From: a virus
Direction: 5' to 3' (one strand)
Virus record (IMG/VR): IMGVR_UViG_3300042288_001085
Coordinates: 1 to 40,701 of that record
DNA length: 40,701 nt
Under the pieces are notes generated by a model, which was given only the letters and a program-made list of their open reading frames with translations, had not been told where the DNA came from and ran no database searches. The position numbers and the translations under genes were made by a program. Shown here piece by piece: positions 6,530 to 20,915 of the stretch; within the stretch, counting starts at the first letter, position 1, and every line of letters starts with the position of its first letter.

Positions 6530-6805
6530 ATGAAGGACTTTCTCTACAAATTCCCAAGCGAGGCCACGGCGCAAACTGTTCTGGCCGATTACTACGATGC
6601 CGCAACTGGATGGAAGACCAGCGGAGAAGGCTATGCGCTTGATCCGGTGGGCATCCTCACCGACACCGACAACAGCGACCCCGAGAACCCCGTGAGCACG
6701 CTCCTCGACGGCTGGCACCTTAATCTGCGCGTGACTGACGACCGGCCAGATCCGGCGGCAGACTACAGCGTCACGCCGACCCAGCAGCGGAGGGTGTGGC
6801 TATGA
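6530..6805 (+). CDS. Small protein following the fibre gene, unknown
   Basis: The 91-aa acidic soluble protein (MKDFLYKFPSEATAQTVLAD then TDTDNSDPENP) begins 1 nt after the fibre stop. Small proteins of this kind often follow fibre genes and act as assembly helpers or fibre caps, but no family is certain. Its TGA overlaps the holin-like ATG (ATGA at 6802-6805), linking fibre and lysis genes in one translated unit. Confidence 0.62.
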   Translation: MKDFLYKFPSEATAQTVLADYYDAATGWKTSGEGYALDPVGILTDTDNSDPENPVSTLLDGWHLNLRVTDDRPDPAADYSVTPTQQRRVWL

Positions 6806-7011
6806 CGGCGTGGCACTATCACATGACAACGACCGAGAAGGGTGTCATCGGCACCGCGACAAGCATCGGATCGTCCATCTTTTCAATGTTACCGCACTTT
6901 GAAGCAACCCTCCGTATAGGCGGACTCATCATCGGAATTTTGGTCGGACTGGCCACGCTCATCAGCGTCCTTCACGACATCAGAAAGAAACAGAAAGAAC
7001 TAAACAAATGA
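6802..7011 (+). CDS. Holin-like membrane protein
   Basis: The 69-aa product starts at ATG 6802 (a GTG at 6796 is possible but lacks the overlap). It has a weak first hydrophobic stretch (GTATSIGSSIFSMLP, about residues 17-31), a strong membrane segment (IGGLIIGILVGLATLISVL, about 41-59) and a basic C-terminal tail (RKKQKELNK). Size, topology and its position at the head of a lysis cassette fit a small phage holin, which makes the inner-membrane lesion that frees the endolysin. ATGA overlaps join it to both neighbours. Confidence 0.68.
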   Translation: MTAWHYHMTTTEKGVIGTATSIGSSIFSMLPHFEATLRIGGLIIGILVGLATLISVLHDIRKKQKELNK

Positions 7012-7181
7012 GAAACTGGAAAACGAACCTGCTCGGAGCACTCACTATCATCGCCAGCTTGTCCACGGCCGGACGCGAATTTCTGGCCAGCGGCACAATC
7101 CCTGACCTCGGCCTCGTCGGCGCAAGTCTACTCGCCGGATGGGGCTTGCTGATGGCGAAGGACCACAACGCCCGCCTCTGA
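7008..7181 (+). CDS. Second small membrane protein of the lysis cassette
   Basis: The 57-aa product begins at ATG 7008, overlapping the holin-like stop by ATGA. It shows two hydrophobic stretches: LLGALTIIASLSTAG (about residues 8-22) and LGLVGASLLAGWGLLMA (about 34-50), with a basic end (KDHNARL). It may be a second holin, an antiholin or a pinholin-type partner. Function is inferred only from its size, membrane pattern and location between holin and endolysin candidates. Confidence 0.58.
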   Translation: MRNWKTNLLGALTIIASLSTAGREFLASGTIPDLGLVGASLLAGWGLLMAKDHNARL

Positions 7182-7185
7182 CTCC

Positions 7186-7341
7186 ATGAGCGTCCGCGCC
7201 ACAAAACTCATTGCAGTTGCGATCCTCGCCGTGAGCTGGGCTGTCGCTGCGGCTGGCTGCGTGACCATCGGCTATGACTTCCTGAAGCAGCAAGCCACCG
7301 TCACATTCGACGCCAAGACTGTCAAAGAGCCAACCAAGTGA
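7186..7341 (+). CDS. Small lipoprotein, candidate outer-membrane spanin subunit
   Basis: The 51-aa product starts at ATG 7186. It has a basic N-terminus (MSVRATK), a hydrophobic core and a lipobox AAGC, with the lipidated cysteine at about residue 25, leaving a mature peptide of about 27 residues. In diderm phages a lysis-cassette lipoprotein of this size is usually the outer-membrane spanin (Rz1-like). I see no separate Rz-like inner-membrane partner, and the mature part is not proline-rich, so the role is tentative. The following gene starts with GTG overlapping its stop (GTGA at 7338-7341). Confidence 0.55.
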   Translation: MSVRATKLIAVAILAVSWAVAAAGCVTIGYDFLKQQATVTFDAKTVKEPTK

Positions 7342-7901
7342 TCCCCAAAAGCCGACCACAACAAAAGCGCGACGAGACGCTGAAGCAGCTCAAGGCTGCC
7401 AACGTCAGCGATCCGGTGTGCTTGGTCGGCATTCGTGGCTACTACCGCGACAGCATGGGCGCCAAGGGCAAGCAGGATCGCGGAATATATGACGACGCCA
7501 TCATCCTTGTCTCGCCCAACGCGCACGTTGCCTTCAACGCAAACGTCGATCCGGCCCGCTACGGAATTAACCCCAAGATCGGCAAAGGCTACGCATCGCT
7601 CAAGTCAGGGGTCTACCGCTACAAGCTGGGCAAGCACGGCACTCGGAGCGGCAACCCTTACAAGGCTCTGGTGCAAGGCGGTGCAGTCACCGTCCAGCGC
7701 GACGGCGGCAAGGAGGAGACCGGCTTCTTCGGCATCAACATCCATCGCGGCGGAATCACCCGCACCAACAGCGAAGGCTGCCAGACCCTTCCGCCCGCCC
7801 AATGGCCCGCCTTCATCTCGCTCGTTGAGTCCGAGATGAAAAGGAATAACGCCAAAACCGTCAGCTACGTTTTAACACAACCAAGAAAGGACATCGCCTA
7901 A
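7338..7901 (+). CDS. YkuD/L,D-transpeptidase-like enzyme, candidate endolysin
   Basis: The 187-aa protein starts at GTG 7338, overlapping the lipoprotein stop. Its key motif is INIHRGGITRTNSEGCQTLP, with His136 and Cys148 in an S-x-G-C block. This matches the catalytic His and S/T-x-G-C of L,D-transpeptidase-fold proteins, although the His-to-Cys spacing is shorter than in classical YkuD enzymes. Such enzymes act on the peptide cross-links of peptidoglycan. There is no signal peptide, so export would need the holin. As the only wall-active candidate in the cassette, I infer it is the lysis enzyme. Confidence 0.68.
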   Translation: MIPKSRPQQKRDETLKQLKAANVSDPVCLVGIRGYYRDSMGAKGKQDRGIYDDAIILVSPNAHVAFNANVDPARYGINPKIGKGYASLKSGVYRYKLGKHGTRSGNPYKALVQGGAVTVQRDGGKEETGFFGINIHRGGITRTNSEGCQTLPPAQWPAFISLVESEMKRNNAKTVSYVLTQPRKDIA

Positions 7902-7902
7902 C

Positions 7903-14459: not shown

Positions 14460-17400
14460 ATGCCGCCAAAAATACTCACGGCGGAACAGGTCGCAGAGAT
14501 TGATCGGCAGCAGCAGAAGCCGGTCAATTGGAGCGCCGTAATTCCGCAAAAGGAAGACGTTCTGACCGCCCGCGTTAACCGCGAGGCGGCGCGTCAGGAT
14601 GCTCCCCCTATGCTGACGGCCGAGCAGGCTGACGCTGCAGAGGCGCAGAACAGCGTGGCGGCTGAGACGTCTTTTGGCCGCGCTATGGGCGCTCGCCCTG
14701 ACCGCTCGGTCGGCCCTCAAGTCCCTGCCCCCAAGAGAGTGCTTTCCGCCGCGGAGGTAGACCAAGCGGACTACGAGCGGGTCGGCGACATCTCTTACAT
14801 TCCCACCAAGGACGAGTGGAAGCGCTACAGCGAAGTGCGCCAGCGCCGCGATGACAAGGTCGGCAAGTTCATCGAGGCGGGCCAAGCAATAGCTGGTGGT
14901 CTTGTTCAAGCGGCGGCGGCGACCGCCTATGCACCCTTTGACTTTGTAACCCGCGGCACCAAAGCCTACGACGAGTGGGTCAATTCCTCCGCGGAAGGAT
15001 TGCGTCAGGCGAGCATCAGCACCGCAGAGCTGTACTCATGGGCCGGTGATATGGTCAATGACGGCGTCCGAGAGACCGAGCGCGTCAACGTGATCGACAA
15101 CCAACTGCGCCAGCGACTTGCCGCGGAGAACAAGTTCACCGGCAACGCTCGGGCGGATGCTCAGATTTTCGCTCAGGCCAGAGAGCGGGCCATGGCGTCC
15201 GGTGCCTACGAAAAGACGCGGGAGCAGGAAGCGAGCGACGAGGACACCCAATACCAGCGCTTCATCCGCGACCGCTCGTTCCAGCAGCAGGCGGCGAACG
15301 TCACCGAGACCAACATCGGCACGCTGCCGGATGGCCGCGCGGAGATGGGCATCGATGAGTCGAAGCTCAACGAGGGTCTAGTGCTTGGCAGCGCACTTGT
15401 TTTAGATCCCCTAAACATTGCCATTCCGGCGGGCCTTGGCGCCGTCAACAAGGTCAGGTTGCTACGTCGCGTTGGCAGTCTCGCGGGCACACCGCTCAAG
15501 GGTGCGTCGAAGGTTGCCGGTTACGCGGCAGGCAAAGCGGAAGGATGGTACGGCAAAATCGTTGACGGAGTTGAATCCGCAACCGGCCTGACCGGCTCGC
15601 AGCAGATGTCCGCCCTGAGCAGTGTTTCATTCAAAGCGGCGGCGGCGATGGCTGCGCTGAAAAAGTCAGGCGCCGTTCTTCGGGCAACCGAGCGCGGACT
15701 AAAGACCGGCAGCATCCTCGCCCGCGAGATCGGCATCGGCGGTGTCGGTGCATCGCGCGTTGAGGCGGCGAGCAAGCTGCGCAGCGCTCCCATTCCTGAG
15801 CGCTACCGCCGTGCCTACGATGGCTTTTTCACCTCCGCGGACAGCACGCTGCGCCGCGTCAGCGAGACGCAGGGACTTTCGCCCATCGCCCGCCGGTCGG
15901 CCGCAACGCTCGACAAGCTGGGCGCCACGCAGGCATTCCGACTGGCCGACGACGCAGTGAGCGGAGCTGTAGCGACGGCGCCCATCGCTGTGCCGCTGGC
16001 AGCCATTGCACCCGAAGAGCGCCAGCCGGAGATCCTTGGCGCGATCATGACTGTCGGCGCCGGTGCCGGTGTGATCGGCGGCAAGATGCGCCGCATGTCG
16101 GAGTTCGATGACGCATTGGTAGCCAAGATGCTGGCTGACGCGGAGATCTCCGGCGGCGACGCCACATCGATGGCCAACATGATGCCGCACGACAGGCTCG
16201 TCAACATGGCTCGCATGCAGTCGGTCATCTCGCCCAAGGCGGACTTCATTCCCCTGCGCGCTACGGACTACGAGATCAACACCACGGTCAAGGAAGCCAT
16301 GGGTCTCGGCACGCGCGGCATCTATGTTGACGCCAAGAAGGGCCAGCGCCCGCGGATCTTCGTTAACCTAGACAAGATGGCGACCGGCGACGTGGCTGGC
16401 CATGAGATCGGCCACGCCATCCTCAAGAGCGACATCCTCGGCGGCGAGGTGAAGCGCGGCATGCGGGCCATGGTTGACCAGCAGTATGGCACCGATGGAG
16501 TCGCCGCCCGCGGACGCGAATACGTCACAGCGAATCTCACGCAGGAAGTGCGCGACGGCACAACCGGTATCCAATTGAACGTGTTGCGCCCCGATGAGGT
16601 GACGCGCATTGCCGCGGCCGGTGGCGACGAAGCGGCCGAGCAGGCGCTGAAGAATGAGTTTATCCGCGAGCGCTGGGCCAACGACACCGACTGGCGCAAG
16701 CAGGCCATCGAGGAGCGCGCCGACATGCTGAACCAAGAGCGCTTGGCGCAGGGCGAGATCTCTTGGGACTGGGCGCGCGACGAGATTGCCGCGGAGACAT
16801 TCAGCGGGCTTGGCAAGGGTCTCAACCTTTCCGGCGTTCGTGCCAGTGGTCCGCTGAGTCGCGCGGTTGGCGCTGCCTCTGCAGGCTTCGAGGCCATGGG
16901 CGCTCGGATGCGCGGCAACGGCCGACTGGAGACACCCAACCGGCTCTTCGTGGAAAACCCGCTCTTCGACACGCCGGAGATGCGCAAGGCGGTCAACAAC
17001 TACGTCAAGACGTTCGACCGCTATCTGGTCGGTCTGGAAAAGGAAGGCTCCGTCAAACAGCGCGGCACGCCGATTGCGCCGACCGGCAAGGCCAGCGATG
17101 CCATCCGCAGTCCTCACACTCGCCTGCACAAGAACGGCAATGTGGTTGAAAACGATTTGTTCTTTCAGCGTCCAGACGGAACAGTCGTTCCTAAGTCACA
17201 GCAGCAGATCAATACGCAGGACAAGTCGCGCGCTGCCACGATTAAGTCGATCAATGACCGGACCAAGTTCGTTAACGAGAACAGCAACGAGTGGGGCGCT
17301 CGCAAACTTAGCAATGGCCGCGTCGAAGTTGGCGGACCCAACCTGCCGCCCCAGTTCGACTACTTCATCCAGATACCGGAGTACCATCGCAATCTCGTTC

Positions 17401-20400
17401 GAGAGTTTGAGGCCGGACGCGCAGAAGGTCGCAGCTATTTGTATTCCATCAACGTCATCGGCAGCCGCGACTCAGGAACGTACAAGGTCACAAACTACGG
17501 CAACATCGAGGCCAAGACCGGCGAGATGGTTCCCTTCGGTGCCGCCGTCTCGACCAAGAATCATGTGCTGATCAAGGCGATTGACCTTAACTCGTTCCGC
17601 GCTTCGGCCATCCGCGCTATCGACAACGAGCAGCTCGGCGAGTTTGGCAATGACCTCCGCGCGGTGGAGACCGGCTTAAAGCAACTTCTCAGCAACTACG
17701 AGAACGGCGTTGCGGGCGAGACAGGACTAGGCGTGACGCGCAAGAACATCCTCAACGGATTGCTGGGCACCGGCACGGTGATGCAGCGCCAGAGCAACCC
17801 CGCTTGGCACACGCTGAACAACCAAGGCAGCGTCCGCACGTTCCGTCTGGACCGCATCAACTACGCGGAGCCATACGGCACCGGCTACTTCCCGCACTAC
17901 AACAAGATCAACATCAACGCGCTGCCGGACGACGCCGGTCGCATGTCTCTGGATCAATACGGACAGTTCGACGCCGACCGTAAGGCGGCTTGGATGAACA
18001 AGGAGGCGGTGAAGCGCGGCTTTAGCAACGCAACCAATTGGCAAAACGCAGACGCGCAGGGATTCCAAGCGGCGGATGGGCAGTATCGGCAGCAGTTTCC
18101 GGCGGGCGGTGCGGCGCAGCGTGGGAGCGCTATGCCAGATGCTACAACCACATCAAAGGCTGCTAAAACGCTGGAAGACCTCAAGCGCACTTCGTTCATT
18201 CCTACCAAAGTAGCGTCTGATGTTCTTGGAGGGTTTCCAGAATATCTAAAGCCGGTTGCGCAGTTTATTGCAGATCAGCGCGGCAAGCTCGTCGAGGGCA
18301 AGATGAACATGCGCGACATCACCAAGGCTTATGTGATGACGATTGCTTCGCAAGGCTCTGGAGCGAGAGCCGTTGAGGTTATTGCCAGCAACTTGGCCAA
18401 GAAGGACATTCCATTTGCCCCCACTCAGGAGTTTTTGACCACAGACAAACAGGGGCGCGCGGCAATTCGTCCCGAAGAAGCTGCCGCCTATTGGCTTGGC
18501 ACCGAAGCAGGACAGCGCGCCCTCAACAACGCGGAGAGCGGCGTGTTTAATCCCAGCGACTGGCAGGAGATGGTCGCTCTGCGCAAGGCATACGGAGATG
18601 ACAGGTTTGCCACTGTGCGCGCATTTTCGCCGGAGAACATCGCACGCATTCCGCAGGTTCTTGCCGATATCAATGCAAGCCGCGGCAACACCGACGCCGT
18701 ATTGACAGCCGTACAAAAGCTCAACGGAATTTCTACAGGCAAGAAGGGCTTCATTTCACACCTTCTCGGCATTGGCGACGTGCCGACGATTGATGCTGTG
18801 GAGATCAATTTTTGGCTGACCGGAAAAGGAGACGTTGGGAAGCTCAACACTAAGCGCGCCGACCTTGTTCGCCGCGTCAAGGAGTCGGTCAGCGACAGGC
18901 GCGTCAGCGAGGAGTTGTTCCGGCGCATTGACAACCGCATCAACGGATTGCGCGATCAGGTGCAGGGAGGGGCTGAGGTCGATCCAGAGGTCTGGTCGCA
19001 CGTCATGCATCACTGGCTTTGGGACAAGGCCAAGAAGATCGAGACGACACACGAAGGCATGTACAGGGCGCAGGCCAGCTTTTTGCCGGACACCGTCATC
19101 AGCGACGAAGGCGGCACCGTCTGGCGCACGCTGCAAGAGGCTCCTGTTATTACGCTCAAAGACCTGCGCGGGAGAAAGGTCTTTGCGTCCTTCGCGGACC
19201 TTACAAGCGCGGGCAAGTTGTACAGGGGTATTGATTCAAGCGAGGTGGCTATACCGGTGCGAACACACGGCGGACCAGAATGGCCGTTGCTACAAGCAGA
19301 GCGTGTTGGCGAGGAAACCAACGTGTGGTCTAATCAAGGCGCCGGAGTTTCAACAACCAAAGCCAAGCGCGCAGACGAGGGCGCAATCATGCTCGTCGCG
19401 GCCATGCACAAAAACGCGCACGTCAGCAACACGGAAACGTCCACGGCGGTCATTGCAACAAACGCAGCCTATGCGCGCGATGGAAGAATTGCCGGAGACA
19501 ATTTGCAGCGCCTCGATGACATGATTCGCGCGGAGATGCCTGACTTTGTTGGTATCGAGTCGCCGGACGTCATGGCGTACGTCAACAAGCTACCGTTCCA
19601 AGGAGAAAGAAGCAGAAGTCGCATCGCGCAGATTCTCGGATCGAAAGAAGCCGAAGCTCTGGGGGCGCCAAACTTGCAGCGCATATTGGACGAGATGCGC
19701 TCCTCGGAGTTTGACGGACTACGGATCGGCGACGCGGTCATGGCTATCGAGCTAACGGCGGGCGCTCCGGTTCTTAAGCTCGGAGAGAATGGAACGCTGA
19801 AGCATCCATCTTATCAATACGCCGTGCGCGGAAGAGTTCTCGGCCGATTCGCGCGCCCCATTAACGTCGAGACGATCTTCGATGACTTTTACGCGCAGAG
19901 AAGGGCGCAGGGTAAGCCGCAGCAAGGAGACAGACGCGCGCTTGACTTGGCAAAGCCTGTGCAGGTGATCACTGACGCTATTGCTGACAGGATTCCAAGC
20001 ACCGCATACACGGCGATCAAATCTCCGCGGCATGCGCAGCTTATCAACATGGCCGTCAACGATCAGTGGCGCTCTACCTCGGCAAGCGTGAAGCAGGGAG
20101 GCGTTAGTCCGGCAGACATTGTTAGCGCGCTGAATGCATCTCCCGCCAAAGTGGCTCTTTCTAGGTATGATCTAAAAACCCTTAGCGGCAAGGTGCGCGC
20201 AAAAGAGCTTGAGGTCTTCCAGCTAGGCGACTCCGGCGTGTACTTCGGAGTGCGGAAGGGCGATCCGGCGTCAGACTATGGTCTGGCTCCAGATGCGTAT
20301 GGCTTTGGGCCGGATGAGCGCACGCTGACGCTGGTGATGAATAACGAGCGCAAGGCCGGAGGAATGGCCGACGCCATTGTCGTCAAGGCGCTGCAAAATG

Positions 20401-20915
20401 GTGTGACGGCGCTGGACTGTTTCGCCGTTAAAAGCGGCAGGTCTCCGAGTGGATTTTTGCCAGAGCTTTACGAGCGCTTTGGGTTTCAGAGGGTTGGAGA
20501 GATACCATTTGATCCTTCTTTTTACTCGAAAACCGAGCTTGCGGATCTGAGGAAATACTGGAAGAGTACAGGGTGGGACGAGTCGGCAGGAATGCCTTCA
20601 ATCGTCCTGATGAAATGGAAGGGAACTAATGAACAAAGACCAAAAAGCCTACGAGAACTTGTTGGCCAAAGTTCGTCAGGTGTTCGCCAAGGAGATAAAC
20701 GAGGGTCTCTATTCCGAGACGCAGAAGGATCTTCTGGACGGCTTCCTAGACGACGCGGTGGCTCGCAGCGGCGGACCGGACAAGGTGACGCTGGAGCAGG
20801 TCAAGGGGTGCAAGGATCTGATGCAGGAGTGCGGCTTGGCCGCGGCATCCTAGGTCCGGTTGAGGAGCTGATCGGATTGTCTCCGGCCGAGCTGCGCAAC
20901 CTCGGCATTCAATAG
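14460..20915 (+). CDS. Giant internal virion / polyvalent-like protein with HEIGH zincin motif and GNAT-like domain
   Basis: This is a 2151-codon frame and the largest gene of the phage. In order: three spaced motifs ILTAEQVAEID, MLTAEQADAAE and VLSAAEVDQAD (residues 5, 51, 94); helical N-terminal region; hydrophobic stretches near 305-330 and 503-541 that could insert into membranes; HEIGH at 648-652 (zinc-metallopeptidase-like); long mosaic segments resembling the large associated domains of polyvalent proteins (about 1000-1170 and 1300-1360); and a GNAT-like block near 1960-2024 (NNERKAGGMADAIVVKAL, LYERFGFQRVGE). It is probably ejected into the host with the DNA, bringing enzymatic domains. 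From residue 2056 on, the sequence looks like a shadow frame of the gene at 20629. Confidence 0.75.
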   Translation: MPPKILTAEQVAEIDRQQQKPVNWSAVIPQKEDVLTARVNREAARQDAPPMLTAEQADAAEAQNSVAAETSFGRAMGARPDRSVGPQVPAPKRVLSAAEVDQADYERVGDISYIPTKDEWKRYSEVRQRRDDKVGKFIEAGQAIAGGLVQAAAATAYAPFDFVTRGTKAYDEWVNSSAEGLRQASISTAELYSWAGDMVNDGVRETERVNVIDNQLRQRLAAENKFTGNARADAQIFAQARERAMASGAYEKTREQEASDEDTQYQRFIRDRSFQQQAANVTETNIGTLPDGRAEMGIDESKLNEGLVLGSALVLDPLNIAIPAGLGAVNKVRLLRRVGSLAGTPLKGASKVAGYAAGKAEGWYGKIVDGVESATGLTGSQQMSALSSVSFKAAAAMAALKKSGAVLRATERGLKTGSILAREIGIGGVGASRVEAASKLRSAPIPERYRRAYDGFFTSADSTLRRVSETQGLSPIARRSAATLDKLGATQAFRLADDAVSGAVATAPIAVPLAAIAPEERQPEILGAIMTVGAGAGVIGGKMRRMSEFDDALVAKMLADAEISGGDATSMANMMPHDRLVNMARMQSVISPKADFIPLRATDYEINTTVKEAMGLGTRGIYVDAKKGQRPRIFVNLDKMATGDVAGHEIGHAILKSDILGGEVKRGMRAMVDQQYGTDGVAARGREYVTANLTQEVRDGTTGIQLNVLRPDEVTRIAAAGGDEAAEQALKNEFIRERWANDTDWRKQAIEERADMLNQERLAQGEISWDWARDEIAAETFSGLGKGLNLSGVRASGPLSRAVGAASAGFEAMGARMRGNGRLETPNRLFVENPLFDTPEMRKAVNNYVKTFDRYLVGLEKEGSVKQRGTPIAPTGKASDAIRSPHTRLHKNGNVVENDLFFQRPDGTVVPKSQQQINTQDKSRAATIKSINDRTKFVNENSNEWGARKLSNGRVEVGGPNLPPQFDYFIQIPEYHRNLVREFEAGRAEGRSYLYSINVIGSRDSGTYKVTNYGNIEAKTGEMVPFGAAVSTKNHVLIKAIDLNSFRASAIRAIDNEQLGEFGNDLRAVETGLKQLLSNYENGVAGETGLGVTRKNILNGLLGTGTVMQRQSNPAWHTLNNQGSVRTFRLDRINYAEPYGTGYFPHYNKININALPDDAGRMSLDQYGQFDADRKAAWMNKEAVKRGFSNATNWQNADAQGFQAADGQYRQQFPAGGAAQRGSAMPDATTTSKAAKTLEDLKRTSFIPTKVASDVLGGFPEYLKPVAQFIADQRGKLVEGKMNMRDITKAYVMTIASQGSGARAVEVIASNLAKKDIPFAPTQEFLTTDKQGRAAIRPEEAAAYWLGTEAGQRALNNAESGVFNPSDWQEMVALRKAYGDDRFATVRAFSPENIARIPQVLADINASRGNTDAVLTAVQKLNGISTGKKGFISHLLGIGDVPTIDAVEINFWLTGKGDVGKLNTKRADLVRRVKESVSDRRVSEELFRRIDNRINGLRDQVQGGAEVDPEVWSHVMHHWLWDKAKKIETTHEGMYRAQASFLPDTVISDEGGTVWRTLQEAPVITLKDLRGRKVFASFADLTSAGKLYRGIDSSEVAIPVRTHGGPEWPLLQAERVGEETNVWSNQGAGVSTTKAKRADEGAIMLVAAMHKNAHVSNTETSTAVIATNAAYARDGRIAGDNLQRLDDMIRAEMPDFVGIESPDVMAYVNKLPFQGERSRSRIAQILGSKEAEALGAPNLQRILDEMRSSEFDGLRIGDAVMAIELTAGAPVLKLGENGTLKHPSYQYAVRGRVLGRFARPINVETIFDDFYAQRRAQGKPQQGDRRALDLAKPVQVITDAIADRIPSTAYTAIKSPRHAQLINMAVNDQWRSTSASVKQGGVSPADIVSALNASPAKVALSRYDLKTLSGKVRAKELEVFQLGDSGVYFGVRKGDPASDYGLAPDAYGFGPDERTLTLVMNNERKAGGMADAIVVKALQNGVTALDCFAVKSGRSPSGFLPELYERFGFQRVGEIPFDPSFYSKTELADLRKYWKSTGWDESAGMPSIVLMKWKGTNEQRPKSLRELVGQSSSGVRQGDKRGSLFRDAEGSSGRLPRRRGGSQRRTGQGDAGAGQGVQGSDAGVRLGRGILGPVEELIGLSPAELRNLGIQ
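20629..20853 (+). CDS. 74-aa protein overprinted on the 3' end of the giant virion gene
   Basis: This frame has a good ribosome site (GGAAGGGA, 5 nt before ATG 20629). It encodes a balanced, helical, charged protein (MNKDQKAYENLLAKVRQVFA, then SETQKDLLDGFLDDAVARSG). In contrast, the overlapping giant frame reads Arg/Gly/Ser-rich sequence (RLPRRRGGSQRRTGQ). I infer that this frame is the conserved one here. ACTAATG at its start contains an out-of-frame TAA at 20627; one base shift would make the giant gene end there by the TAATG overlap common in this phage. The function is unknown. Confidence 0.62.
   Translation: MNKDQKAYENLLAKVRQVFAKEINEGLYSETQKDLLDGFLDDAVARSGGPDKVTLEQVKGCKDLMQECGLAAAS

Follow-up and report, generated by a model that had tools for sequence, protein, structure and literature searches.

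A 187-aa protein encoded by the last gene of a compact lysis cassette is predicted from sequence comparison, with a probability of roughly 0.86, to be the endolysin of the phage that carries it, a role supported both by its gene context and by its exact exchange with an Amidase_2 endolysin in sister phages. The phage is represented by the window, that is, the whole stretch of 40,701 nucleotides that was analysed (IMG/VR record IMGVR_UViG_3300042288_001085), which constitutes a complete phage genome with identical 127-base ends that form a direct terminal repeat. As an endolysin, the protein falls into a family of known but unusual fold, and it is not a classical YkuD enzyme by motif. It matches phrog_3000 over residues 14–179 (PHROG scan, E = 1.2e-19) and is by sequence a member of this family, with nothing essential differing. 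Scans with Pfam and NCBIfam returned nothing meaningful for the protein, PF03734 (YkuD) gave no match at E ≤ 1, and sequence searches of the PDB, with the single sequence as well as with a profile, found no relatives.

The cassette consists of four small genes on the plus strand, with a tail gene on one side and the structural region on the other. An earlier note on this DNA had placed it between two fibre genes, which is roughly right: the gene before it encodes phrog_5939, a tail protein, and the one after it is structural or of unknown function. All four open reading frames that the note had listed at 6802–7901 are present, and the features of the region are the following:

Positions 6802 to 7011, plus strand: 69-aa small membrane protein, probable holin (open reading frame, hydrophobic segment, ATGA overlap).
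Positions 7008 to 7181, plus strand: 57-aa small membrane protein, probable second holin or antiholin (open reading frame, ATGA overlap).
Positions 7186 to 7341, plus strand: 51-aa lipoprotein with the lipobox AAAGC (sequence, conservation).
Positions 7338 to 7901, plus strand: 187-aa phrog_3000 protein, predicted endolysin of L,D-transpeptidase fold (PHROG, AlphaFold2, Foldseek, invariant residues, amidase replacement).
Positions 7305 to 7902, plus strand: block whose place is taken in sister phages by a segment with an amidase gene (blastn).

The start of the 69-aa gene overlaps the stop of the open reading frame at 6530–6805 (ATGA), a further ATGA overlap joins the 69-aa and 57-aa genes, a 4-nt gap separates the 57-aa gene from the lipoprotein gene, and the 187-aa gene begins with GTG at 7338, overlapping the lipoprotein stop (GTGA); within the cassette, the ATGA/GTGA overlaps described earlier are those of the first and the last gene pairs. 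In the three small genes, changes relative to their relatives fall mostly at the third codon position, and synonymous single-base changes outnumber non-synonymous ones (198/53, 2028/720 and 456/214, the second pair of counts being that of the 57-aa gene). This third-position bias, together with the synonymous excess, indicates that the three small genes are real. Elsewhere in the structural region, at 14460–20915, the window encodes a 2151-aa protein that has no Pfam or PHROG match and is possibly an internal virion or ejection protein.

The cassette would operate as a host-lysis module, in which the two small membrane proteins provide a holin and a probable antiholin or second holin. The 69-aa protein is probably the holin, as judged from context and hydrophobicity; its PHROG holin match is a weak one (E = 0.39), and its homologues adjoin phrog_3000 genes in very distant phages. 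The 57-aa protein, probably a second holin or an antiholin, is conserved across the 153 loci in which 1.3 kb or more of downstream sequence was available. A degenerate search from a mixed holin alignment yielded no stretch that was conserved enough. Across the family, the phrog_3000 gene is no more than 1.2 kb away from a gene for a small membrane protein in 27 of the 33 cluster representatives, and transmembrane segments are found in 48% of the small open reading frames near a phrog_3000 gene versus 16% of those far from one (odds ratio 5.0, p = 1.3e-10).

The 51-aa lipoprotein, whose mature part comprises about 28 aa, is a candidate for a factor that disrupts the outer membrane or acts in the manner of a spanin, and it probably aids lysis at that membrane; in agreement with the earlier note, the window cassette contains no Rz-like inner-membrane coiled-coil partner beside it. 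Rz-like proteins are present in the relatives L107 and L221, the order in L107 being the phrog_3000 gene, a membrane protein, an Rz-like protein and an overlapping Rz1-like lipoprotein. In two further loci (L101:2942–3481 and L100:3142–3678), an open reading frame of ~180 aa with hydrophobic stretches in its C-terminal part stands in place of the short lipoprotein, flanked by the 57-aa gene and the enzyme gene. The 187-aa protein itself has no signal peptide, SAR or transmembrane segment, and no hydrophobic segment is found in representatives (N-terminus, MIPKSRPQQKRDET). Given these features, cytoplasmic build-up and holin-dependent release are expected, such that the endolysin would stay in the cytoplasm until the holin opens the inner membrane and gives it access to the wall.

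In sister loci without a phrog_3000 gene, the same slot is filled by a protein of 194–198 aa, and the three slot proteins tested match Pfam Amidase_2 with E values of 1e-19 to 1e-21. When loci were gathered through the 69-aa holin-like protein, and not through the enzyme gene, which leaves the set free of bias towards phrog_3000, 38 of the 67 with enough downstream sequence carry the amidase and 29 carry phrog_3000, with no locus having both and none having neither (13 further loci were left out as too short). The loci anchored on the 57-aa gene with at least 1.3 kb downstream, a set biased to phrog_3000 because many of its members were fetched with it, include 115 with the amidase and 38 with phrog_3000 among 153, again with none having both or neither; counted as distinct sequences, these are 78 and 29 of 107.

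The borders of the exchange were located by blastn. Homology between the window and four amidase-type sisters (L325, L330, L312 and L343) stops at 7304, and with L325 and L330 it is back at exactly 7903, with none in 7305–7902, the swapped block being the enzyme gene plus the final dozen lipoprotein codons. The last ~12 lipoprotein residues (window 7305–7341) track the type of enzyme in every typed locus: tails of the FDxKxxKEPxK type go with phrog_3000, and those found with the amidase are mostly VNPPxKGxAK or VTPSTKGYAK. The Amidase_2 endolysins of the sister phages, which are of the T7-lysozyme/PGRP type, share with the phrog_3000 protein the slot, the neighbours, a similar size and the lack of an apparent signal peptide, whereas they are zinc amidases that cut another bond and are unrelated to it in sequence and fold. 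The proposal that the 187-aa protein is a lysis enzyme, put forward in the earlier note, thus gains support from its gene context and from this one-for-one exchange. A contig of 48,181 bp (G001, with loci L004 and L388) was considered as a case of co-occurrence and rejected: each of its ends carries its own version of the lysis region, phrog_3000 being present in one and the amidase in the other, and it is over-length or a strain mix, and was hence left out of the co-occurrence count.

When the main and plausible open reading frames of the window genome were scanned with Pfam and PHROG, no enzyme acting on the wall, such as a lysozyme or an amidase, was found, and targeted searches found no match to GH24, M15 (two models), GH19, SLT or CHAP. 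Since the genome is closed by the 127-bp repeat, this absence is meaningful, and the earlier observation that no lysozyme or amidase gene is present holds for the complete window genome, while a GH19 enzyme does accompany relatives in one other lineage. Among 45 to 46 phage records bearing phrog_3000, the GH24, M15 (two of them), GH19 and SLT models gave some match in eight, seven of them to GH19 and one a sub-threshold match to GH24; six of the GH19 records belong to one lineage by size and context, and the remaining one is a 219-kb genome that also matches GH24. An Amidase_2 search of a near-identical record set matched nothing beyond an amidase-type control and that over-length contig, and a GH108 search was uninformative, its controls being silent. 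No further enzyme of the families searched is thus present in 37 of the 45 records to which all these searches were applied, the window included, the co-occurrence counted in this way being a lower bound, as some records are fragmentary and the count covers these families only. In the phages of this GH19 lineage, which are 36–38 kb in size and of which L103, L105 and L159 were read in detail, a GH19-like enzyme of 200–215 aa is encoded ~2.5–3 kb upstream of the phrog_3000 gene, and in these three the GH19 gene lies apart from the cluster of membrane genes and phrog_3000. The presence of GH19 and GH24 enzymes in relatives implies that the phrog_3000 protein can be a second enzyme and is not always the only lysin.

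The structure of the 187-aa protein was modelled with AlphaFold2 from a viral alignment (pLDDT 92.5, pTM 0.88). In a Foldseek search of this model against 350,542 PDB chains, Csd6 of Helicobacter pylori (PDB 4XZZ) ranked first with a probability of 0.91 and DpaA of Escherichia coli (also LdtF or YafK; PDB 8IKR) second with 0.82, the remaining matches listed all being below 0.1. A divergent phrog_3000 relative with 34% identity to the window protein was also modelled (pLDDT 96.3), the two models being taken from opposite ends of the family. Its top five PDB matches, LdtGo (0.99), two entries of Ldtfm (0.90), Csd6 (0.69) and LdtMt1 (0.41), are all of the L,D-transpeptidase fold, with nothing comparable below them. 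The E-values of these PDB matches are modest (0.003–0.09), with TM-scores of 0.36–0.45, which indicates a distant relation, although two independent queries concur. On the strength of these models, an L,D-transpeptidase-like fold is almost certain for the 187-aa protein, as the earlier note had suspected, the leading PDB matches of both models having that fold. Among viral models, the relatives of the 187-aa protein include DUF5675 (probability 1.00, E = 5e-4) and a protein named 'Lysin'. DUF5675 (PF18925) was also tried as the parent family and rejected, as no profile match was obtained in the window, Bdellovibrio phage phi1422 or the crAss-like phages Rudgehvirus jaberico and cr271_1.

The two known proteins closest in fold differ from the 187-aa protein in several respects. 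Csd6, a YkuD-family L,D-carboxypeptidase, is a cell-shape enzyme that trims stems and does not lyse cells, and sequence similarity to it was undetected. DpaA, a YkuD-like hydrolase that detaches Braun lipoprotein, has no significant sequence similarity to the 187-aa protein, possesses a signal peptide, cuts a protein–peptidoglycan bond and is not known to lyse cells. Alignments with hhalign against the single E. coli sequences of DpaA and LdtB were not significant, the sole aligned stretch beginning in both cases at the catalytic SxGC.

In the family alignment of 65 diverse sequences, G31, D53, H100, A110, V119, R121, H136, S145, G147 and C148 are invariant. His136 and Cys148 are spaced by 12 residues in the window protein, a value shared by 278 of the 332 motif-bearing relatives (11–18 in the remainder) and shorter than in classical members, as had been noticed earlier, given a spacing of 16 in E. 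coli LdtB; that of the hydrolase DpaA, 8, is shorter still. LdtB reads SHGC-V-R and DpaA SIGC-Y-A, and neither SHGC nor an Arg two positions after the Cys occurs in any of the 332 motif-bearing relatives. This Arg is common in transpeptidases and missing from DpaA, a hydrolase that resembles the 187-aa protein in having SxGC without the His and without the Arg (PMC10653827). The label 'YkuD-like' given in the earlier note is thus apt for the fold and for the invariant His and Cys and inapt for classical YkuD membership by sequence or motif, and a hydrolase is the better reading than a transpeptidase.

Because His136 and Cys148 are kept while the SHGC-then-Arg signature is absent, we infer that the 187-aa protein would act as a thiol hydrolase whose acyl-enzyme intermediate is resolved by water, so that stem-peptide crosslinks are cut. 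Its exact specificity is predicted more tentatively, at somewhat below an even chance, to be that of an L,D-endopeptidase, which would cut on the carboxyl side of the meso-DAP L-centre and break 3-3 crosslinks as well as the donor side of 4-3 crosslinks. This specificity is favoured since the same bond is used by the fold elsewhere, and L,D-endopeptidase activity has been reported for some YkuD enzymes (PMC12729407, PMC10727944). The fold is also common to crosslinking enzymes, two of which (LdtGo and Ldtfm) match the divergent relative, and the protein might then be a true L,D-transpeptidase or a wall modifier that resides in the lysis region to strengthen or remodel the wall, or to block superinfection, and is not a lysis enzyme. 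Such a role is very unlikely in view of the exact one-for-one exchange with an amidase endolysin, the complete window genome, in which no further endolysin was found, and the absence of both SHGC and the Arg common in transpeptidases from all 332 motif-bearing relatives.

Relatives of the 187-aa protein are numerous: IMG/VR contains at least 554 confirmed candidate stretches, and another 226 were found in contigs of bacterial genomes, among them Verrucomicrobiota, Bacteroidota, Proteobacteria and others. They include gp76 of Bdellovibrio phage phi1422 (40% identity) and proteins of R. jaberico and cr271_1, all of which share the invariant residues of the 187-aa protein. In public phage records, these relatives are 'hypothetical protein' or without annotation, and no annotated endolysin is found in the records of phi1422 or R. 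jaberico. One table of the phi1422 paper seems to give 'Lysin' for this phage, but the same table counts zero lysis genes, and the text of the paper names none either (PMC3391216). In papers on these two phages and on YkuD lysins, no experimentally determined function was found for phrog_3000.

Some bacterial relatives lie outside obvious prophages. A Sinorhizobium plasmid protein annotated as 'lysozyme' is a fusion of a GH24 Phage_lysozyme domain (residues 5–128, E = 5.5e-34) and a phrog_3000 domain (residues 188–374, E = 4e-53), an arrangement that counts in favour of the endolysin reading. The fusion loci (L389:4443–6173, from a Sinorhizobium fredii plasmid, and L390:4413–6179) are on conjugative rhizobial plasmids, with DUF2235 and DUF1353 genes adjoining the fusion gene in L389. 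In Acinetobacter modestus and Olivibacter chromosomes (L246:5288–7979 and L243:5309–6579), the relatives follow a membrane protein of ~150 aa with a weak DUF4231 or 8xMP match, and the Acinetobacter relative is followed by a patatin phospholipase and lies in no evident prophage; these loci are possibly a domesticated lytic or conflict module. The neighbourhoods of the non-prophage Acinetobacter relatives (the DUF4231-like membrane protein and patatin) and of those on rhizobial plasmids (DUF2235 and DUF1353 proteins) would fit an anti-bacterial effector or toxin module instead of a phage lysis gene, an interpretation that is barely credible for the window gene, which sits amid the structural genes of a complete phage genome and has conserved lysis-type neighbours.

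In Pseudomonas sp. TH43, an Amidase_2 gene adjoins the phrog_3000 relative. Together with the rhizobial fusion to a GH24 lysozyme, the GH19 enzyme found alongside in one lineage and the L,D-carboxypeptidase nature of Csd6, this is what would be expected if the 187-aa protein were a second lysin or an accessory enzyme akin to an L,D-carboxypeptidase, helping a principal endolysin. Such a subsidiary role is rather unlikely, as the window and 36 of the 44 other records have no further enzyme of the searched families at E ≤ 1e-3, and as the phrog_3000 gene in the window's own group replaces the amidase instead of joining it. The preferred reading is that the 187-aa protein is the endolysin itself. 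Phage lytic proteins of the YkuD type in PhaLP likewise contain a lytic domain of L,D-transpeptidase fold, but they are recognised by the YkuD, cd16913 and PF10908 models, and the 187-aa protein matches neither of the Pfam models; they are rare there, with 10 entries compared with 2309 for Amidase_2 and 1834 for GH24 (PMC8310338).

It is tempting to extend this reading to the whole of phrog_3000, a proposal held at slightly less than even odds. The family would then be a large, unrecognised one of stand-alone endolysins, in which an L,D-transpeptidase fold has been turned into a crosslink-cutting hydrolase that is interchangeable with an amidase. It would serve phages whose hosts are Verrucomicrobiota, Bacteroidota (crAss-like phages among them), Proteobacteria and Bdellovibrio, and would form the first class of phage lysins in which the L,D (meso-DAP) bond is the target of the sole lysis enzyme. 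Few phage proteins have been studied as closely as endolysins, which are in development as antibacterials. For phrog_3000, which is listed as of 'unknown function' in PHROGs v4 and missed by standard Pfam models, a likely role is now proposed, and its swap with an amidase between otherwise similar phages offers a ready natural experiment. If confirmed, the finding would give those crAss-like and Bdellovibrio phages that have no annotated lysin in public records a probable lysis enzyme, and it would mean that a fold that builds crosslinks can also serve the destruction of the wall.
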